This document shows positions 53,279 to 64,000 of a stretch of DNA of 64,000 nucleotides, piece by piece; position 1 is the first letter of the stretch; each line of letters starts with the position of its first letter. Made by a program: the position numbers and the translations under genes. Under the pieces are notes generated by a model. It did no database searches and was not told where the DNA came from. It saw only the letters and a program-made list of their open reading frames with translations. Source of the DNA: Flavobacteriaceae bacterium (lineage in GTDB: Bacteria; Bacteroidota; Bacteroidia; Flavobacteriales; Flavobacteriaceae); assembly GCA_002723295.1 (NCBI GenBank), contig PBNP01000013.1, positions 45,389 through 109,388 on the forward strand, given 5' to 3'.

Positions 53279-53797
53279 ATGTTAGGTGAACTGATAACAT
53301 CAAAAACACGATTACGTCTGATGATAAAATTCTTTATATCACAGGCTAATCGTGGTTATCTAAATGGTTTAGCTAGTGAAATGGGAGAATCTACAAATGC
53401 AATAAGAAAAGAGCTTAATCACTTATATGGTGCAGGTTATTTGAAAAAAGTAAAATCTGATAATAAAGTTGAATATAAGGCAAATACAAAGCACCCATTA
53501 TTTAGTGTGTTAAGAAAGGTCGTTTTAAAACATCTTGGCTTAGAAGATATGGTTGAAACGATTCTTGGAAGAATGGGAAATGTTAAAGAAATTATTTTAG
53601 TTGGAGATTATGCTAAAGGAATAGATTCGGGTAAAATTGAAGTGTTTTTAATTGGAGAAAATCTGGACATGGAATATATAGCGCAATTAGAGGATAAGAT
53701 TGAAAAATTAATTAAAAGAAAAGTTAGTTTTTATTTAGCAAATAAATTCTTAAGTGATCAACAAAATATAGTTTTATTTAAGGAAAAAAGCCAATAA
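53279..53797 (+). CDS. Winged-HTH protein with NTase-like C-terminal domain, at the head of the polysaccharide operon
   Basis: LITSKTRLRLMIKFFISQANRGYLNGLASEMGESTNAIRKELNHLYGAGYLKK wHTH; GNVKEIILVGDYAKGIDSGKIEVFLIGENLDMEYIAQLEDKIEKLIKRKVSFYL. Confidence 0.8.
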   Translation: MLGELITSKTRLRLMIKFFISQANRGYLNGLASEMGESTNAIRKELNHLYGAGYLKKVKSDNKVEYKANTKHPLFSVLRKVVLKHLGLEDMVETILGRMGNVKEIILVGDYAKGIDSGKIEVFLIGENLDMEYIAQLEDKIEKLIKRKVSFYLANKFLSDQQNIVLFKEKSQ

Positions 53798-54147
53798 TGA
53801 TATCTATTGAAAATGAAGAAAGACCATGGGGTCGTTTTTTTGTGATTCATGATGAAAAAAATTATAAACTAAAAAGGATTGAGGTTAATCCTGGGGCAAA
53901 ATTATCTTATCAATATCATAATAAAAGATCCGAAGCTTGGACTATAGTTCAGGGAAAAGGAAAAATAACTTTAGATGGAAAAGTTTTTAGTGTTAGTCAA
54001 GGAGGAACTTTAGTGATACCCCAAGGCGCTAAACACAGGATTGAAAATAATTCTAAAGAGAAAGTTGTTTTTATTGAAGTTCAAACTGGATCATATTTTG
54101 GAGAAGATGATATTGTAAGATTAAAGGATGATTACAATAGAATTTAA
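53797..54147 (+). CDS. Cupin (type II phosphomannose isomerase C-terminal-like)
   Basis: RPWGRFFVIHDEKNYKLKRIEVNPGAKLSYQYHNKRSEAWTIVQGKGKITLDG...IPQGAKHRIEN. Confidence 0.88.
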   Translation: MISIENEERPWGRFFVIHDEKNYKLKRIEVNPGAKLSYQYHNKRSEAWTIVQGKGKITLDGKVFSVSQGGTLVIPQGAKHRIENNSKEKVVFIEVQTGSYFGEDDIVRLKDDYNRI

Positions 54148-54150
54148 ATT

Positions 54151-54588
54151 ATGAAAAAAGGAATCATTGTTTCTGGATATTTTAATCCTTTACATAAAGG
54201 ACATATAGAATATTTTAAACTTGCTAAAATTAATGGTGATATTCTCATTGTAATTGTAAATAATGATTTTCAAAGGGAGCTTAAAGATTCAAAAGAGTTT
54301 ATGCTAGAGGAAGAAAGGCTATTAATTATTAATGAACTTGAAGTTGTTGACAAAGTTTTTTTATCTATAGATAAGGATCGAACTGTTTGCAAAACACTCG
54401 AAAAGATTCACGAAAATTTATCATCTAATTATCAATTGTTTTTTGCAAATGGAGGAGATCAGAACAATAATTCTATACCGGAAATAAATACTTGTGAAAA
54501 GTTGAATATTATGCTCATTGATGGACTAGGAAAGAAAATTCAGTCTTCATCTTGGCTTTTAAAAAAGGAGAATAATATTGACCTATGA
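54151..54588 (+). CDS. Cytidylyltransferase-like (HxGH nucleotidyltransferase)
   Basis: GYFNPLHKGHIEYFKLAKINGDILIVIVNNDFQ; EEERLLIINELEVVDKVFLS; FFANGGDQ. Confidence 0.85.
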   Translation: MKKGIIVSGYFNPLHKGHIEYFKLAKINGDILIVIVNNDFQRELKDSKEFMLEEERLLIINELEVVDKVFLSIDKDRTVCKTLEKIHENLSSNYQLFFANGGDQNNNSIPEINTCEKLNIMLIDGLGKKIQSSSWLLKKENNIDL

Positions 54589-55970
54589 AAATCAAAAATA
54601 TTTGTTGTATTGGAGCTGGCTATGTTGGAGGCCCTACCATGGCAGTAATTGCATTAAAATGCCCTGAAATAAAGGTTACTTTAGTTGACAATAATCCTAG
54701 TAAAATTGAAGCATGGAATGGAGACTTGGATAATTTACCGGTTTATGAACCAGGTTTGAAAGAAATAATTGCTAATGTTAGAAACAAGAATTTATTCTTT
54801 TCTTCTGAGATTGATAATGCAATAGATAAATCAGAGATGATTTTTATGGCAGTTAATACTCCTACTAAGACAAAAGGAAAAGGTAAAGGAATGGCTGCTG
54901 ACTTAACACATGTTGAAAATTGTGCTAAAAATATTGCTAGAGCAGCATCTTCTTATAAAATAGTTGTTGAAAAGTCTACACTTCCTGTAAGAACAGCTGA
55001 AAAAATAAAAGAGATACTAAATTCTCAAGGAAATGGAGTAAAATTTGAAATATTATCAAACCCAGAATTTTTAGCTGAAGGCACAGCAATTCAAGATTTA
55101 TTTAAATCAGATAGAGTTTTAATAGGGAGTGATTCAACAAAAAGGGGTAAAATGGCAGCTAAAGCATTGGTTGAAATTTATTCACGGTGGATTCCCAATA
55201 ATAAAATTTTAACTACTAATGTTTGGTCATCGGAATTATCTAAACTTGCATCTAATGCAATGCTAGCTCAAAGGATTTCATCAATAAACAGTTTTTCTGT
55301 TCTTTGTGAAAAGACAGGAGCAGAAATTGAGGAAGTTTCCGAAGCAATAGGCATGGATCATAGGATTGGACCCAAATTTTTAAATGCTTCTGTTGGTTTT
55401 GGAGGGAGTTGTTTCCAAAAGGATATTCTAAATTTAGTTTATTTATGCAATTATTATGGGTTAAAAGAAGTTGCCGAATATTGGTATCAAGTAGTTAAAA
55501 TAAATGACTATCAAAAAATTAGATTTGCTAATAAAATTATAAATAAATTCAATGGTAATTTGCAAGATAAGGTTATCTGTTTTCTTGGATGGGCATTTAA
55601 AAAGAACACTAATGATAGCAGGGAATCTGCATCAATATATGTTGCAAAAAAACTTCTAGAAAATGGAGCTAATATTCAGGTGTTTGATCCGATGGTAAAG
55701 GAGTTAAGAATTAAATTGGATTTAAAAAAATTATTTGAATTTAATGGATTAGAATATAGTGAAATAGAAAATAGATTAGAAAAAGTCACTGTTTATAAAA
55801 ATCATAATCTTGCAATAAAAAATTCTAATGCTATTGCAATTCTCACTGAATGGGAAGAATTTATAGATTATAATTGGCATGATTATCTTAAAAAAGGGAT
55901 TAAAATCTTTGATGGAAGGAATTTGATAAAGAAAGATTTTAAAAAAACGAAAAACTATTTTGAATTATAA
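54585..55970 (+). CDS. UDP-glucose 6-dehydrogenase family (nucleotide-sugar dehydrogenase)
   Basis: CCIGAGYVGGPTMAVIALKCPEIKVTLVD; FMAVNTPTKTKGKGKGMAADLTHVE; NPEFLAEGTAIQDL; GFGGSCFQKDILNLVY; FLGWAFKKNTNDSRESASIYV. Confidence 0.93.
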   Translation: MKIKNICCIGAGYVGGPTMAVIALKCPEIKVTLVDNNPSKIEAWNGDLDNLPVYEPGLKEIIANVRNKNLFFSSEIDNAIDKSEMIFMAVNTPTKTKGKGKGMAADLTHVENCAKNIARAASSYKIVVEKSTLPVRTAEKIKEILNSQGNGVKFEILSNPEFLAEGTAIQDLFKSDRVLIGSDSTKRGKMAAKALVEIYSRWIPNNKILTTNVWSSELSKLASNAMLAQRISSINSFSVLCEKTGAEIEEVSEAIGMDHRIGPKFLNASVGFGGSCFQKDILNLVYLCNYYGLKEVAEYWYQVVKINDYQKIRFANKIINKFNGNLQDKVICFLGWAFKKNTNDSRESASIYVAKKLLENGANIQVFDPMVKELRIKLDLKKLFEFNGLEYSEIENRLEKVTVYKNHNLAIKNSNAIAILTEWEEFIDYNWHDYLKKGIKIFDGRNLIKKDFKKTKNYFEL

Positions 55971-56022
55971 TTAAAATAGATAATTAGAAATTTAATTTTT
56001 GATAAAATTAAAAGATAGAGAA

Positions 56023-57939
56023 ATGTTAAAAGTTATACATAAACCATGGGGTAAAGAGGAATGGATAGAATTAAATGATTCATACTGCTATAAAAGGATT
56101 TATATAAAAGCTGGCTATAAAACAAGTTATCAATATCATAAATACAAGAAGGAAACTAATTATATAATTTCTGGTAAAGCAGAAATATGGTTAGAAAATG
56201 ATAAAGGAGTAGTTGAAAGAAAGATAATGAATAAGGGTGATTATTTTAATGTTAAACCTCCAAAAAAACATAGAGTTATAGCGCTAACTGATTTAATTTT
56301 ACAAGAAGTATCTACACCAGAGGTAGATGATGTTTTTAGAATTAATGATGAATATAACAGAGAAGATGGGAAGATAGAAGCTGAACACAAAACACCAGCA
56401 GTACTTATTTTATCAGCTGGATTAGGATCTAGGCTTGGCAATTTAACTAAATACATAAATAAGGCCATGTTGCCAATCAATAATGAGGCAATTATTTCTT
56501 TAATTATAAAAAAGTTTCCCAGAAGTTATGATTTTGTAATTACACTTGGATATAAAGGAAATCAGTTAAAAGAATTTCTCGAACACTCGTTTCCAACACA
56601 TAATTTCATTTTTGTTAAAGTTGACAATTATGACAAAAAAAATACAGGACCAGGTTCAACAGCTATAAAATGTAAAAAACATCTTCAAAGACCCTTTTAT
56701 TTTGTTGTTTCTGATTGTATAGTAGATTCTAAAATCCCTCATATTGATGGGAATTGGCTTGGTGTTCAAGAGACTAGTTTTCCTGAAAAATATTCAACTA
56801 TTAAAATAAATGATGCTTCAAAAATATTAGACTTTAGTCAAAAAAGTAAAAATGGACATGAAAATGCATTTATAGGATTAGCAAGTATTCGGGATTATAA
56901 AGTTTTTTGGAATGAACTTGATAAAAACATGATCAATGGTGAAATCGTAAATGCTTTCAACAATGTTTCAAAATATAATAATTTAAAAGCAAAAAATTTT
57001 AAATGGTTTGATGCAGGGAACCTTGATGATCTAAATTATGCAAAAAAGTATTTTAAAGATAAGCCTTTGTCATTATCAAAAAACACAGGTGAAATTACTT
57101 ATTTGGGGGAATCATTTTTAAAATATAATCCATCAAAAGATAAAATAAAAAACATATCTAAAAGAGCAAGATATCTATCTAAAATTATCCCAAAAAACTT
57201 TGTTAATTCAAACTACTTTATTAAATATGATTGGTTAGAAGGAAAAACATTATACCAAATAGATTCCTTAAAAACATATTCAAATTTTTTAATAAAATTT
57301 AGTGATTTAATAAAAAAAAGTGAATTTAAAAAAATTAATAATAATGAAATTAAAGAGTTTTACATTAACAAGACAAAAAAAAGGGTTGATCTATTTATTA
57401 AAAAAAATGGAATAAACTTTTTAAATAGTTCTTTTAAAGTTAATGGAATATCAACAAAACCAATGAAAGATTATCTTGAAAGAATAAACGTAAAGAAATT
57501 TGATAAGACAAAAAAATATAATATGTTTCATGGGGATTTACAGTTTGATAATATATTGTTTGGGAGTAAAGAAGGAAAATATTATTATATAGATTGGAGA
57601 GAATCATTTGCAGGAGACACTTCTGGAGGAGATTTATATTACGATTTGTCAAAACTTTATGGGGGTTTAATAATTAATTATTTTATGGTAAAGCAAAACA
57701 AATCATTCGAATTTGAAGAAGGAGCTACAATAATTAATTACAAAATATTTACCTCAGAAGCATTAAAAATGTTTAAAAATGAATATGAAAACTGGATTGT
57801 TAAAGAAGGTTATGACTTGACCTTAATTAAATATATAACAGGGTTAATTTTTTTAAACATGTCTCCATTACATGATGATAATTTTGGAAAATTATTATGG
57901 TTTAAATCAATAGAAATGTTTAATCATGAAAATAAATAA
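56023..57939 (+). CDS. Three-domain fusion: cupin + NTP transferase + APH/choline-kinase-like kinase
   Basis: Cupin HKPWGKEEWIELNDSYCYKRIYIKAGYKTSYQYH; NTase AVLILSAGLGSRLGNLTKYINKAMLPIN; kinase YNMFHGDLQFDNILFGSKEGKYYYIDWRES. ATG at 56023 preferred over TTG at 55999. Confidence 0.85.
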   Translation: MLKVIHKPWGKEEWIELNDSYCYKRIYIKAGYKTSYQYHKYKKETNYIISGKAEIWLENDKGVVERKIMNKGDYFNVKPPKKHRVIALTDLILQEVSTPEVDDVFRINDEYNREDGKIEAEHKTPAVLILSAGLGSRLGNLTKYINKAMLPINNEAIISLIIKKFPRSYDFVITLGYKGNQLKEFLEHSFPTHNFIFVKVDNYDKKNTGPGSTAIKCKKHLQRPFYFVVSDCIVDSKIPHIDGNWLGVQETSFPEKYSTIKINDASKILDFSQKSKNGHENAFIGLASIRDYKVFWNELDKNMINGEIVNAFNNVSKYNNLKAKNFKWFDAGNLDDLNYAKKYFKDKPLSLSKNTGEITYLGESFLKYNPSKDKIKNISKRARYLSKIIPKNFVNSNYFIKYDWLEGKTLYQIDSLKTYSNFLIKFSDLIKKSEFKKINNNEIKEFYINKTKKRVDLFIKKNGINFLNSSFKVNGISTKPMKDYLERINVKKFDKTKKYNMFHGDLQFDNILFGSKEGKYYYIDWRESFAGDTSGGDLYYDLSKLYGGLIINYFMVKQNKSFEFEEGATIINYKIFTSEALKMFKNEYENWIVKEGYDLTLIKYITGLIFLNMSPLHDDNFGKLLWFKSIEMFNHENK

Positions 57940-58543
57940 AGACACAAAAATTTATTGTTCTTTTTCAGAAAATCCTGGAAATAATGGATGTATTTTCTTT
58001 AATAAAAAATTTAAGAAAAATAATATTAATGCTATTTACAAATCTTTTTATTCAAATAATCTATTAAATTCAATAAATGCAGTAAAGGCATTGAATTTTT
58101 CTGGTTTTGCCCTGAGTATGCCATTCAAAATTGATGTTTTAAATTATGCAAATAAAATTAATCAAGAAGTAAAAAGAATAGGAAGCTCAAACACAATAAT
58201 TAATGATAATGGAAAATTAATTGCATATAATACAGACTGGCTAGGTGTTTTAAGATTCTTTGAAGAAATAAAAATGTATGATGAAATAGCAATTGCTGGC
58301 AATGGAGGCTTTAGTAAGGCTATACAATATGCGTGTAAAGAATTATCAATAAAATTTGAAGTTATTAGTAGAATTAATTGGGGAAGATTTGAATCTTTAA
58401 ATGTTCCAGTATTTAATGCCACACCAATTGATTTAACATATTCGGGTGAGATTATCGATGGAAGGCCAAACACTAAAATAGGAAAAACAATTGCTATGTT
58501 TCAAGCTGAAGAACAATATAAATTATACATAAAATGGATGTAA
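57926..58543 (+). CDS. Shortened shikimate dehydrogenase (AroE)-like protein
   Basis: FSGFALSMPFKIDVLN (K), GSSNTIINDNGKLIAYNTDWLGV (D), AIAGNGGFSKAIQYAC, VFNATPIDL; 205 aa. Confidence 0.75.
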   Translation: MKINKDTKIYCSFSENPGNNGCIFFNKKFKKNNINAIYKSFYSNNLLNSINAVKALNFSGFALSMPFKIDVLNYANKINQEVKRIGSSNTIINDNGKLIAYNTDWLGVLRFFEEIKMYDEIAIAGNGGFSKAIQYACKELSIKFEVISRINWGRFESLNVPVFNATPIDLTYSGEIIDGRPNTKIGKTIAMFQAEEQYKLYIKWM

Positions 58544-59499
58544 AATTTTTTATAGGGCCAATGTCTAAAAACGTTGTTGATACTATTATTGATTTTCAAA
58601 AAGAAACAAAGGAAAAAGTTGGATTTATTCCTAGTCGAAGACAAGTGGAATATAATGGTGGATACTCAAATAACTGGACAACAGCTGAATTTTGCAAATA
58701 TGCGACTAACCATCTTTTAGTTAGAGATCATGCTGGGCCTGGTCAGGGAAATGTTAATGATGATGGCTATGAGTCTCTTAGTCAAGACTCTAATTATTTC
58801 GACATAATTCATGTGGACCCATGGAAGCAATATCCAAAATATAAAGACGGATTAAAATGGTCAATTAATATGATTAACTTTTGCTTTTCAAAAAATAAGG
58901 ACATAATCTACGAGGTTGGAACTGAAGAAGCTATTCGAAAATTTGAAGTAAATGAATTAGATAATTTTATTTTAGACTTAAAAAAAAATTTAAACACTAA
59001 TGTTTTTAAAAAAATCAGATATTTAGTTATTCAATCAGGAACATCTCTTTCTATTGATAAAAATACTGGTGTATATGATAAAAAGAGATTAAAAAGAATG
59101 ATTGAGTTATCAAAAAAACATAATCTTATTTCTAAAGAGCATAATGGGGATTACATAAGTGAGAATATTATTCTTGAAAAAATGAATGAGGGACTTGATT
59201 CAATAAATATTGCCCCTGAATTTGGGTTAATTGAAACCCAAACTTATCTTGATAACATTCAAGATAAAAAAACTTTTGACTTATTTTGGAAAATTTGTTT
59301 TGAGTCAAATAAGTGGATTAAATGGGTTCCAAAAAATTTTAATCCATTAAAAGAAAAAGAAACATTAATTAAAATTTCTGCACACTATATTTTTTCAAAT
59401 TCTTTTTTTATAAAAGAGATTAAAAATAAATTACCAGAAATTGATATAGAAATTAGAAAAAACATTTATAGAAAATTAAACAAATTATATGGATACTAG
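58534..59499 (+). CDS. GatZ/KbaZ-like (class II tagatose-bisphosphate aldolase non-catalytic subunit-like) TIM-barrel protein
   Basis: LLVRDHAGPGQG, YFDIIHVDPWKQYPKYKDGLKWSINMINFC, DIIYEVGTEEAIRKFE, NLISKEHNGDYISE parallel the GatZ GGDHLGP / IHLD / EVIGTEVP motifs. Confidence 0.5.
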   Translation: MDVKFFIGPMSKNVVDTIIDFQKETKEKVGFIPSRRQVEYNGGYSNNWTTAEFCKYATNHLLVRDHAGPGQGNVNDDGYESLSQDSNYFDIIHVDPWKQYPKYKDGLKWSINMINFCFSKNKDIIYEVGTEEAIRKFEVNELDNFILDLKKNLNTNVFKKIRYLVIQSGTSLSIDKNTGVYDKKRLKRMIELSKKHNLISKEHNGDYISENIILEKMNEGLDSINIAPEFGLIETQTYLDNIQDKKTFDLFWKICFESNKWIKWVPKNFNPLKEKETLIKISAHYIFSNSFFIKEIKNKLPEIDIEIRKNIYRKLNKLYGY

Positions 59500-59848
59500 A
59501 CCTAAAACAATTATTTGTGACATTGATGGAACAATAGTTAAACATAAACTTCCAACAGAAAATTGTAAACCTAACATTAGATTAGAGCTTTTGGAAGGTA
59601 CTATTGAAAAATTTTCTGAATGGGATCAAAAGGGATATTTTATTATTTTGATAACTGGAAGAAAAGAATCACTAAGAAAACATACAGAAAAGCAGTTATC
59701 TGAAGCTGGAATTTTTTATGACAAATTAATTATGGGAATTGGAGGCGGAAAAAGAGTTTTAATTAATGATTGCAAGCCAAATGGAGAAGATACAGCTTTG
59801 GCTTTTTCATTAAAAAGGAATAAAGGGATAAAAGACATTAATATATAG
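59489..59848 (+). CDS. HAD-like phosphatase
   Basis: TIICDIDGTIVKHKLP (DxDGT), FIILITGRKESLRKHTEKQLSEAGIFYDKLIMG, GKRVLINDCKPNG. Confidence 0.85.
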   Translation: MDTRPKTIICDIDGTIVKHKLPTENCKPNIRLELLEGTIEKFSEWDQKGYFIILITGRKESLRKHTEKQLSEAGIFYDKLIMGIGGGKRVLINDCKPNGEDTALAFSLKRNKGIKDINI

Positions 59849-59850
59849 TT

Positions 59851-60180
59851 GTGAATAATATTGAATTAAAAACAAAAAAATATTTCTATTTTTGGAAAAG
59901 TAAAAACATTAAAGAATTATCAAAATTATTTGATAATGGAGTTATACTTCAAGATTGGGAAAATGTTGTAAATGGCAAAGAAGACCTAATTAAATTTAAC
60001 ACTCAATTTTTCAATTCGGTTGATAATATTGAATTAGATGTTGTTAATATTTATAATTATTCAAACATAACTTTTTCAGAATTGATTATTAGAGTGAATA
60101 ACAATATTATAAAGGTTTTAGATAAGATTGAGTATAATAAAAAAGGATTAATTACAAAAATAACAGCATATAAGGGATAG
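59851..60180 (+). CDS. NTF2/SnoaL-like small protein
   Basis: GTG start; FYFWKSKNIKELSKLFDNGVILQDWENVVNGKEDLIKFNTQFFNSVDNIELDVVNIY. Confidence 0.65.
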   Translation: MNNIELKTKKYFYFWKSKNIKELSKLFDNGVILQDWENVVNGKEDLIKFNTQFFNSVDNIELDVVNIYNYSNITFSELIIRVNNNIIKVLDKIEYNKKGLITKITAYKG

Positions 60181-60371: not shown

Positions 60372-63300
60372 ATGCAGGTATTTATTCTAGGCGCTCAAAA
60401 AATTAAAGGATGGTTTTTATCTAATGACAGTTCAGTATTAGTAAAGAAGTTAATTAGTGGTAAAAGTTTTTTGGATTGGAATATTAATTCACTAAATGAA
60501 AAAGGAATTAAACATGATTCAATTTCTTTAATTGCAGGGCATAAGTTTAAAGAAATTCAAAAATCAATTCCAAAAATAAATTATATAGTAAATCCAAAAT
60601 GGGAACATACACATGTTGTAGGGTCTGTTAGACATGCTTTGGATTATTGGAACGGAGAAGACCTTTTAATTTTTTATGCTGACACTTTATTTAAACCAAA
60701 TGCCTTAAAAGAGTTTATAAATTTATGTACAGAAAACTTAATCGCAACTAGTGATGTCTCTTCAGATAATTATAATTTCAGACATAAAAAACCAAAAGAA
60801 GAAATATTACAACTAAAAAATAATTACTATAAAAATTTCAAAAAAACTGAAATAACAAAACCAAAACACTTTTCTGGATTAACTTTTTTAAAAAAAGAGA
60901 CAGTTAAAAAATTTAAACTTTTACTAGAAAAAAGCAATAATTCACTAGATAATTTAAGATTTTCAAATGCGCTTGATGAATTGATAAAATTAGACTCTAA
61001 AATAAAATTTAAATCATTTGATATTAATAACTCTTGGGTTGAATTAGATTCATTAGATAATATAACTAAATTCATTTTTGGCTCAAAGGCTGAAACTTTA
61101 TATAGATTGAAGCCATTTATAAAAAAATCCTTTGTTTGTGACCAAATTTATTTTGATATAAATGAATGGAATTCTTCCAAAGAATCAGTTATCAATAAAA
61201 TTCAAGAAGAGTTCAATGAAAATATAATAATTAGAAGTAGTTCTCTAGAAGAAGATTCTTGGGAAAATTCTCAAGCTGGTTCATTTTTGAGTATTAAAGA
61301 TATTAACCCAAAAAATAGAAGATTACTTACGAGTAATATTAAAAAAGTAATAAATCAATATAGTAAAAAAGGGAATAAGCCTAATCTAAATAATCAAGTT
61401 TTAATTCAGCCATTTATTAAAAATACTTCAATTAGCGGTGTGGTTTTTTCAAAAACTCTTGAAGAGGGACTTCCATATTATTGTATAAGTTATGACGATT
61501 ACTCTAAAGAAACAGATGTGGTAACTTCTGGAAAAACAAACAAAATCAAGACATTTACTATTCAGAGAAACTGTAGTAGAGATATATTAAACCCAATAAT
61601 TAAAAAGATTATTTATTCTGTTGAAGAGATAGAAAAAATATTAGAATATTCATCACTTGATCTAGAGTTTATAATTGATGAAAACAACAAGTTATTTATT
61701 GTTCAAGTTAGGCCAATTACTTCACATAAAAGTTTAATTGAAAGCGAAGAATTCAAAGACAATTTTAAAAAAACTAAATCTATCTTGGCTAATAGATTGA
61801 AAAATAAGAGTCACTTAAGAGGAAAAATTAATTTGCTTTCTGATATGTCTGATTGGAATCCGGCTGAAATGATTGGGGTAAAGCCAAAGCCTCTTTCATT
61901 GTCTTTGTATAAATATTTAATAACTGATTCAACGTGGAGGAAATCAAGGGGTATGATAGGATATAATAACCCTTCTCCAGAAAAACTATTATTTTGTTTA
62001 GGAGGACATCCATATATAGATTTAAGAAACAGCTTAAACAATTTAATACCTAAAGGGTTGTCAATAAAGTTATCAGACAAGTTGATAAATCATTATTTAA
62101 ATTTAATTAAACAAAAGAATCATTTACATGACAAGATTGAGTTTGAAGTTGCAATTACATGTTATTCACCCGATATTGACAAACACCTTTTAAGATTAAG
62201 GAATGCTAATTTTTCAGAAAAGGAAATAAATGAACTGAAAACAAAATTAAAAGATTTAACCAACAACATTATAAATCAGAATAAATTCAAAATTGATGAA
62301 CTTGTTAATCGCACACTTATTTTAGATGAAAAAAGAAAAAAAACCATTGAAAAAAAATATAAAATAAATGAAATCCCTAGTATGATTAAATATTTATTAG
62401 AGGAATGTATCAAACTGGGAACTTTGCCATTTGCTATTTTAGCTAGATATGGATTTATTGGCACATCAATGATTAGAGGATTAGTTAACAATAAAATAAT
62501 TGATGAAAATCAAAAAAATAAATATTTAAACTCAATAGAAACTATAGTAACAGAGATGTTAAATGAAATGAATAATGTAATTGAAAATAAATTAACATTA
62601 GAAAAATTCTTAAACAAATTTGGACATTTAAGGCCTAATTCATATAGTGTTGAATCGTTTACTTATAGAGAAAAGCCAGAATATTATTTGCCATCAAAAA
62701 AGAATGATTACCCTAAAATTAATTCAAAGGTAAAATCTAGATTTAAGTTTAATAAAAAAACTAAATCATTGATTAATCAGGAATTAAGTGAAATGGATTT
62801 TGATGTTGAGCAATTGCTTAATTTCATTGAAAAATCAATTTCTGCTAGGGAGTTATCTAAGTTTCAATTTACTAAAACATTGAGTACAATTCTTGATTTA
62901 ATTATTGAGTACTCTAAAAATCATTCAATAACGAGAGATGATATTTCTTTTATATCTATAAATCAAATTTTATTTACTAAAACAAAGACAAATCTTAATG
63001 AATTAGTTCTAAAAGGGAAGAAAAACTTTTACAAATCTAATGAAATTTTAACCCCAGGTTTTATATCTTCATTAAATGGACTTGATATTATTGAAAGAGA
63101 TGAGAATTTGCCAAATTTTGTTTCAATGAAAAATATAAATGCAGAAATTTTCTATTTAAATAATTTATCAAATAATAATGATATTAAAAACAAAATTGTA
63201 TTAATTGAAAGTGCTGATCCTGGATATGATTGGATATTTTTATATAATATTAAGGGATTAATTACAAAATATGGAGGAGCTGCATCACATATGACAATAA

Positions 63301-63422
63301 GGTGTGCTGAGTTTGGTTTGCCTGCTGCGATAGGATGTGGAGAAAGTTTGTTTAATGAATTAAAAAAATCAAACATGATTAATCTAAATTGTAATTTAAA
63401 GGAAATAACAATATTAAAATAA
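60372..63422 (+). CDS. Fusion: N-terminal nucleotidyltransferase + PEP-synthase-like ATP-grasp/swivelling-His kinase (candidate CTP:phosphoglutamine cytidylyltransferase/glutamine kinase)
   Basis: NTase: THVVGSVRHALDYWNGEDLLIFYADTLFKP...WVELDSLDN; PPDK_N-like: FGSKAETLYRLKPF...IIIRSSSLEEDSWENSQAGSF...FIIDENNKLFIVQVRPIT; swivel: ITKYGGAASHMTIRCAEFGLPAAIGCG. Confidence 0.8.
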   Translation: MQVFILGAQKIKGWFLSNDSSVLVKKLISGKSFLDWNINSLNEKGIKHDSISLIAGHKFKEIQKSIPKINYIVNPKWEHTHVVGSVRHALDYWNGEDLLIFYADTLFKPNALKEFINLCTENLIATSDVSSDNYNFRHKKPKEEILQLKNNYYKNFKKTEITKPKHFSGLTFLKKETVKKFKLLLEKSNNSLDNLRFSNALDELIKLDSKIKFKSFDINNSWVELDSLDNITKFIFGSKAETLYRLKPFIKKSFVCDQIYFDINEWNSSKESVINKIQEEFNENIIIRSSSLEEDSWENSQAGSFLSIKDINPKNRRLLTSNIKKVINQYSKKGNKPNLNNQVLIQPFIKNTSISGVVFSKTLEEGLPYYCISYDDYSKETDVVTSGKTNKIKTFTIQRNCSRDILNPIIKKIIYSVEEIEKILEYSSLDLEFIIDENNKLFIVQVRPITSHKSLIESEEFKDNFKKTKSILANRLKNKSHLRGKINLLSDMSDWNPAEMIGVKPKPLSLSLYKYLITDSTWRKSRGMIGYNNPSPEKLLFCLGGHPYIDLRNSLNNLIPKGLSIKLSDKLINHYLNLIKQKNHLHDKIEFEVAITCYSPDIDKHLLRLRNANFSEKEINELKTKLKDLTNNIINQNKFKIDELVNRTLILDEKRKKTIEKKYKINEIPSMIKYLLEECIKLGTLPFAILARYGFIGTSMIRGLVNNKIIDENQKNKYLNSIETIVTEMLNEMNNVIENKLTLEKFLNKFGHLRPNSYSVESFTYREKPEYYLPSKKNDYPKINSKVKSRFKFNKKTKSLINQELSEMDFDVEQLLNFIEKSISARELSKFQFTKTLSTILDLIIEYSKNHSITRDDISFISINQILFTKTKTNLNELVLKGKKNFYKSNEILTPGFISSLNGLDIIERDENLPNFVSMKNINAEIFYLNNLSNNNDIKNKIVLIESADPGYDWIFLYNIKGLITKYGGAASHMTIRCAEFGLPAAIGCGESLFNELKKSNMINLNCNLKEITILK

Positions 63423-63424
63423 TT

Positions 63425-64000
63425 ATGCAAATTGCAATATCTCAAAAAGTTGTTTTTGATAAAAGCTCTAGAGAAACAAGAGATGTTCTAGATCAAGGTT
63501 GGCAGGAATTTGCAAGTTCAATCAATATTAGATTATACCCTATACCTAACAAGATTAATAATGTTGAAGAATATATTTATAAACTTCAATTAGATGGGAT
63601 AATTTTTTCTGGAGGAAATAATATAGGGTCACAAAATAAAATTCTTTTTAAAAACAAAACTCTTATAAAAGATGATGTTTCTTTAAGCCGAGAAAAAGTC
63701 GAGATAAAACTTTTAAATTGGTCAATTCAAAATAAAAAACCAGTTATTGGGGTATGTAAAGGAATGCAATTTATAAACTCTTATTTTGATGGCAAACAAG
63801 GCCTTATAAATGCCTCAAAACATGTAAATAAAATGCATGAAGTGAAATTTATTGACAAAGAATTCATCGAAATTTATGGTGAATCTCAAATAGTAAACTC
63901 TTATCATAATTTTGGAATAAACCAAAAAAAATTGTCGCCTAAACTTATTCCAACTTCAATTTCTGATAATGAGGTTGAGAGTTTTAAACATATAAATAAT
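63425..64000 (+). CDS. Class-I glutamine amidotransferase-like hydrolase, C-terminally truncated by the window (candidate gamma-glutamyl-CDP-amidate hydrolase)
   Basis: Manual translation MQIAISQKVVFDKSSRETRDVLDQGWQEFASSINIRLYPIPNKINNVEEYIYKLQLDGIIFSGGNNIG...KPVIGVCKGMQFINSYFDG...QIVNSYHNFGI; no stop before the window end, hence missing from the ORF track. Confidence 0.82.
   Translation, partial: MQIAISQKVVFDKSSRETRDVLDQGWQEFASSINIRLYPIPNKINNVEEYIYKLQLDGIIFSGGNNIGSQNKILFKNKTLIKDDVSLSREKVEIKLLNWSIQNKKPVIGVCKGMQFINSYFDGKQGLINASKHVNKMHEVKFIDKEFIEIYGESQIVNSYHNFGINQKKLSPKLIPTSISDNEVESFKHINN

Follow-up and report, generated by a model that had tools for sequence, protein, structure and literature searches.

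A glutamine-kinase-family protein fused to a cytidylyltransferase-like domain at the start of a putative variant phosphoramidate gene cluster in a Flavobacteriaceae bacterium

Introduction

Phosphorus-nitrogen (P-N) bonds are rare in biology. The closest described system to the genes studied here is the pathway to the O-methyl phosphoramidate (MeOPN) donor of Campylobacter jejuni, in which Cj1415-Cj1418 jointly convert glutamine, ATP and CTP to CDP-phosphoramidate 3'-phosphate (PMC11800397), Cj1418 being the L-glutamine kinase (PMC10971088). Xanthomonas campestris and Shewanella sp. MR-4 have been reported, in work cited by PMC3907429, to carry unmethylated phosphoramidates in their lipopolysaccharide (LPS), and the portions of the literature consulted here gave this chemical observation no genetic basis. 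An open-access literature search, whose coverage left the primary Cj1415-1418 enzyme papers outside, returned no paper on the pathway outside Campylobacter or on the fused gene type described below. In this work the right end of a 64,000-nucleotide stretch of contig PBNP01000013.1 of a Flavobacteriaceae bacterium (the whole stretch is called the window) was analyzed, where a glutamine-kinase-like gene carrying an extra N-terminal domain is followed by a hydrolase-like gene. We propose, with a probability of about 0.6, that this end is the start of a variant type of phosphoramidate donor cluster, in which cytidine diphosphoramidate (CDP-NH2) would be used without 3'-phosphorylation and an unmethylated product placed on a surface glycan.

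The locus resembled Cj1415-Cj1418 in the kinase, hydrolase and cytidylyltransferase families, in their order and in the capsule or glycan setting (PMC3907429, PMC11800397). Unlike in C. jejuni, the kinase was fused to an additional cytidylyltransferase-like domain, and loci of this fused type were without the CDP-amidate kinase, the Cj1419/1420-like methyltransferase, CysQ and the NF058596 transferase.

Results

The last 3.6 kb of the window consisted of two plus-strand open reading frames (ORFs), with 2 bases between the stop of one and the start of the next. A preliminary description of this DNA had listed a nucleotidyltransferase (NTase) domain, a kinase resembling phosphoenolpyruvate (PEP) synthase and a class-I amidotransferase-like ORF in a row; all three were located at that site, yet within two ORFs, the NTase-like and kinase parts forming one frame. 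The final base of the window is the final base of its contig (109388 bp), so the readable sequence stops there, and the assembly (1.27 Mb) is 68.8% complete. The features were as follows.

60372-63422, plus strand: fusion ORF, 1016 aa, one frame with NTase-like and kinase parts
60372..61058, plus strand: fused N-terminal domain, residues 1-229, predicted cytidylyltransferase-fold paralogue of phosphoglutamine cytidylyltransferase (hhalign, profile, AlphaFold, residue table)
61059..63422, plus strand: L-glutamine kinase-family domain, residues 230-1016, with ATP-grasp and swivelling-His parts (NF004508 profile, relatives, tree)
61089..61751, plus strand: PPDK_N/ATP-grasp region (IIRSSSLEED; LDLEF; VQVRP), PF01326 E 6.4e-12, residues invariant in the alignment
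63189..63392, plus strand: PEP-utilisers mobile (swivelling) domain with His973 (codon 63288-63290), PF00391 E 3.6e-10
63425..64000, plus strand: class-I amidotransferase resembling gamma-glutamyl-CDP-amidate hydrolase, truncated where the contig stops, with Cys111 (NF045546, PF07722, alignment)

The kinase part matched NF004508/PRK05849 (NCBIfam) over residues 230-1015 with 810 bits (E 1.9e-243, cut-off 501), against 41.5 bits for the best PEP synthase model and 21.3 for rifamycin phosphotransferase; PEP synthase and rifampin phosphotransferase were therefore ruled out, and the glutamine-kinase family named in the preliminary description was upheld. It aligned with plasmid relatives over the full length at 32-34% identity, and the ATP-grasp residues and the swivelling-domain His (residue 973, within the motif GGAASHM) were conserved. 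NF004508 carries only the name "hypothetical protein", and its tie to Cj1418 was made through gene order. The Campylobacterales members (766-829 aa) directly precede the hydrolase and cytidylyltransferase genes, mostly with a gene resembling adenylylsulfate (APS) kinase there too, and these unfused loci have the Cj1418-1417-1416-1415 order. Because of this arrangement the family is likely to be that of glutamine kinase, and L-glutamine kinase (EC 2.7.3.13) is the likely activity predicted for the window domain.

The second ORF matched NF045546 (gamma-glutamyl-CDP-amidate hydrolase) with 90.3 bits (E 1.7e-25), every other model scoring at most 27.5, and PF07722 with E 3.8e-17. The motifs SGGNN, GVCKGMQ and VNSYHNFG were found, of which the second holds Cys111, the Cys of the Cys-His-Glu triad; the His/Glu region (WHPER in relatives) falls beyond the contig end. 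PuuD, the competing identity, reached only 12.4 bits and was rejected, in agreement with the earlier assignment. Judged from the E-values and from the gene order kept in relatives, a chance match is excluded for both ORFs.

The fused N-terminal domain by itself gave only weak matches in family libraries. When compared with the Cj1416-like family by hhalign, its whole length was aligned with a probability of 99.9 and E 3.6e-37, and a Cj1416-like profile search of the window's genome matched the fused domain with E 7.9e-14. Its AlphaFold model (predicted local distance difference test score 85.7) had PntC as the best match in the PDB (6pd2, template-modeling score 0.73), and other cytidylyltransferases matched too. 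The fold and full-length homology were thus those of the Cj1416 family and the PntC/LicC cytidylyltransferases (6pd2, 1jyk). Differently from these, the fused domain did not carry the intact CTP-binding GxGxR..PK signature that marks Cj1416 members, its positions being Q9, G13 and V22 in the window, and in fused-type relatives an intact member of the family was encoded separately as well. The profile and structure comparison suggested in the preliminary description accordingly revealed a Cj1416-family homologue with a PntC-like fold, but with the CTP signature absent.

Residues were then compared between 30 fused domains and 83 separate Cj1416-like enzymes, with the numbering of locus L054. 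The Arg of the signature was kept in 7/30 fused domains and the Lys in 0/30, while Tyr99, Asp101 and Trp230 were kept in 30/30, Glu143 and Glu232 in 29/30 and Arg134 in 27/30. The window domain retained Y102, D104, R137, E144, W222 and E224. Wide flanks were available for 25 fused-type loci, and each of these had a separate intact Cj1416-like gene after the hydrolase. The earlier proposal that the NTase domain is the Cj1416 equivalent was given up because of this separate gene and of the lost GxGxR and PK residues. On sequence grounds, the domain is read as a full-length paralogue, a former phosphoglutamine cytidylyltransferase that has lost the CTP-binding residues and mostly kept the pocket.

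The comparison of locus types took in about 110 kinase loci, and the main gene counts were made on loci with wide flanks; apparent N-terminal extensions in L066, L075, L079 and L091 were scored as open frame only, not as domains. Hydrolase and cytidylyltransferase genes were close to the kinase in 79 of the 80 wide-flank loci. A Cj1415-like CDP-amidate kinase gene was nearby in 1/25 fused versus 32/40 unfused loci (Fisher p 5.6e-10) and, in a second locus set from three other genome draws with one truncated unfused contig (L222) omitted, in 0/7 versus 17/18 (p 1.7e-5), p-values that overstate the evidence because the loci are kin and independent changes on the kinase tree are few. On that tree, trait F had 5 changes, at least 3 of them on starred branches, and an independent-pairs test of fusion versus the kinase gene had 2-3 contrasts, with which no significance could be reached.

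Other genes were divided in the same way. The Cj1419/1420-like methyltransferase family was found in 23 loci and the CysQ-type 3'(2'),5'-bisphosphate nucleotidase family in 10, all unfused in both cases, and the MeOPN-transferase-like family was near unfused kinases only (11 loci). The presence of CysQ would be consistent with a 3'-phosphorylated donor in the unfused loci. L030 had the sole strong fused domain accompanied by a Cj1415-like gene, and there Lys replaces Glu232; in six loci with weakly matching N-terminal domains that also had a Cj1415-like gene, the pocket residues were decayed. With regard to the P-N decoration put forward in the preliminary description, a P-N product was supported as a prediction, and MeOPN as the end product was not, since the fused loci were without the Cj1415, Cj1419/1420-like and CysQ genes.

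One Helicobacteraceae genome (G392, with L134 and L153) contained both an unfused Campylobacter-like locus and a fused-type locus. A formyltransferase-like gene (PF00551) recurred near both locus types, in 31 loci (for example L042:9253-9978).

No single uniform transferase was found for the fused loci; Glyphos_transf-like, alkaline-phosphatase-superfamily and sulfotransferase-like genes occurred by lineage. Glyphos_transf genes (CDP-glycerol glycerophosphotransferase-like) adjoined the trio in L153 (E 4.6e-55), L021, L023 and others, and one such family was present in 14 fused, 2 unfused and 1 archaeal loci. An alkaline-phosphatase-superfamily protein held that place in G067, a genome of the window's order, and in L053 (Bacteroidetes). 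TagF-family enzymes (PF04464), which adjoin the trio in several fused loci, would use a CDP-activated donor with CMP leaving; their use of CDP-amidate is purely a prediction, and no such gene was seen in the window.

In the window's own genome, 69% complete, a search for APS kinase (PF01583, Cj1415-like) gave nothing over the cut-off, and the Cj1416-like profile gave only the fused domain over it; a match on C34 proved to be a glucose-1-phosphate cytidylyltransferase-like gene. The MeOPN transferase NF058596 was found neither in the assembled part of this genome nor in G067 and G245.

Discussion

From the family memberships, the fold, the gene order of relatives and the split into two locus types, we infer the following course. 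The kinase domain would use ATP to phosphorylate the side-chain amide of L-glutamine, giving phosphoglutamine, which a separate Cj1416-type cytidylyltransferase, expected right past the contig end, would convert to CDP-glutamine. The hydrolase at 63425 would then release glutamate and CDP-NH2. Unlike in Campylobacter, the fused branch is normally without 3' phosphorylation of the ribose of CDP-NH2 and without O-methylation, so CDP-NH2 itself is the likely donor, from which an unmethylated phosphoramidate would pass to the surface glycan with CMP leaving. The final transferase probably varies by lineage, being often CDP-glycerol glycerophosphotransferase-like and of the alkaline-phosphatase superfamily in two Bacteroidota relatives. 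The N-terminal domain probably binds phosphoglutamine or a CDP-linked intermediate and passes it on. The LPS modification reported for X. campestris and Shewanella sp. MR-4, an unmethylated phosphoramidate, corresponds to the product predicted for fused-type loci.

Several observations weigh against this proposal. The window contains just the first two pathway genes, the second cut by the contig end. The hydrolase score is under the NF045546 cut-off of 250 bits for this truncated ORF, and the hydrolases of 8/8 relatives were also under it; since syntenic relatives score just 101-181 bits, the cut-off leaves out most of the hydrolase family outside Campylobacter. The contrast between fused and unfused loci stems from no more than 2-3 changes that are independent of one another in the kinase tree. 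Other methyltransferases were present near some fused loci, and Glyphos_transf-like genes also near 7/60 unfused kinases. The equivalents of D234 and D238 varied among the fused domains, and the window is without D238.

The kinase and hydrolase families, and the homology of the fused domain to Cj1416-type enzymes, would also fit the MeOPN pathway in its standard form, with the fused NTase acting as Cj1416 and with Cj1415, methyltransferases and an MeOPN transferase downstream, in the part unreadable past the contig end. We regard this as improbable. The separate Cj1416-like gene in every wide-flank fused locus, the loss of the signature Arg and Lys, the lack of Cj1415-like, methyltransferase and CysQ genes in fused loci, bar the one kinase in L030, and the failure to find NF058596 in the 69% complete genome all argue against it. 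A somewhat better, still rather unlikely, explanation gives the fused domain an enzymatic activity of its own, a new reaction that replaces the CDP-amidate kinase, for example as a transferase acting on CDP-amidate. Fusion and Cj1415-like genes were almost mutually exclusive, the pocket residues were conserved just where Cj1415 was missing, and the N-terminal place was held in other kinases by an HxGH-type domain (archaea) or a Cj1415-like kinase (L069); on the other side, there is no known chemistry for such a domain, its second metal-binding Asp is Asn in 17/30, and the independent contrasts are the same few.

A loss of the role in surface glycans, with the locus now making a small phosphoramidate metabolite or consisting of horizontally acquired, idle genes, seems very improbable, as glycan genes lie in the upstream operon, the frames are intact and the catalytic residues are conserved. 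This idea draws on the window kinase grouping with distant taxa, and on an Agrobacterium vitis plasmid (L028), on which a kinase-hydrolase-cytidylyltransferase trio is followed by LysE and CDP-alcohol phosphatidyltransferase genes with no glycan genes nearby and whose product is possibly a phosphoramidate small molecule or lipid.

The proposal of a variant donor cluster can be widened. Tentatively, and at less than even odds, the fused loci could represent a second widespread phosphoramidate branch, in which a repurposed cytidylyltransferase domain sits on the glutamine kinase, 3'-phosphorylation and methylation are dispensed with, and CDP-amidate is used directly. Such a branch might explain unmethylated phosphoramidates on bacterial, perhaps archaeal, surfaces, the fused domain serving some new function for which there is no need where the CDP-amidate kinase is present. 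The two locus types make it testable which organisms produce unmethylated phosphoramidate, and they raise an enzymological question, namely the role of a cytidylyltransferase domain without the CTP signature on a glutamine kinase.

Genomic context and related loci

The surface-polysaccharide context given in the preliminary description was borne out by glycan genes upstream on the same strand (53797..59848, library scans and sequence reading):

53797, plus strand: cupin
54151, plus strand: HxGH-type nucleotidyltransferase
54585, plus strand: UDP-glucose-dehydrogenase-like (label from sequence reading and tblastn matches)
55999-57939, plus strand: cupin, sugar-nucleotidyltransferase-like and kinase-like (APH fold, weak) parts, 646 aa
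57926, plus strand: shikimate-dehydrogenase-like (N-part)
58534, plus strand: 321-aa orphan of no family
59489, plus strand: HAD

A run of four small genes at 57926-60180 (shikimate-dehydrogenase-like N-part, the 321-aa orphan, HAD and SnoaL-like) had no counterparts in other kinase loci. A prediction of the glycan from the window's neighbours was dropped, as most of them were without such counterparts.

Scanning 85,462 species genomes revealed at least 542 relatives across bacteria and archaea, and the kinase family was present in about 2% of the sampled genomes of the window's phylum (7/396). On the kinase tree the window kinase grouped with L071, a marine alphaproteobacterial sequence, rather than with G067 of its own order; the wider group took in archaea, fused Campylobacterales and a single cell of Bacteroidetes. 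This grouping with distant taxa suggests that the kinase gene was gained by horizontal transfer.

Woesearchaeota and other archaea had an HxGH-type cytidylyltransferase-like domain in the N-terminal place of the kinase instead of the GT-A type domain, at the start of the kinase frame in L044, L065, L067, L068, L072, L074, L081, L084, L087 and L102; archaeal phosphoramidate chemistry would be new. A Bryobacteraceae metagenome-assembled genome (MAG) carried a Cj1415-like (APS-kinase-like) domain fused ahead of the glutamine-kinase-like domain (L069:2738-5764), and in L027 (MT837632.1) the hydrolase was fused behind the kinase. These varied fusions support a working association of the activities, not a mechanism. 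L027 is labelled "Bacteriophage sp.", and its neighbours resembled those of a bacterial chromosome (thioredoxin reductase-like, phosphoribosyl pyrophosphate synthetase-like and MurC-like); it is probably a mislabelled scaffold. A "Bifidobacterium breve" MAG contig was almost identical to a Solirubrobacterales contig (L080/L085), a likeness probably due to mis-binning or mislabelling.

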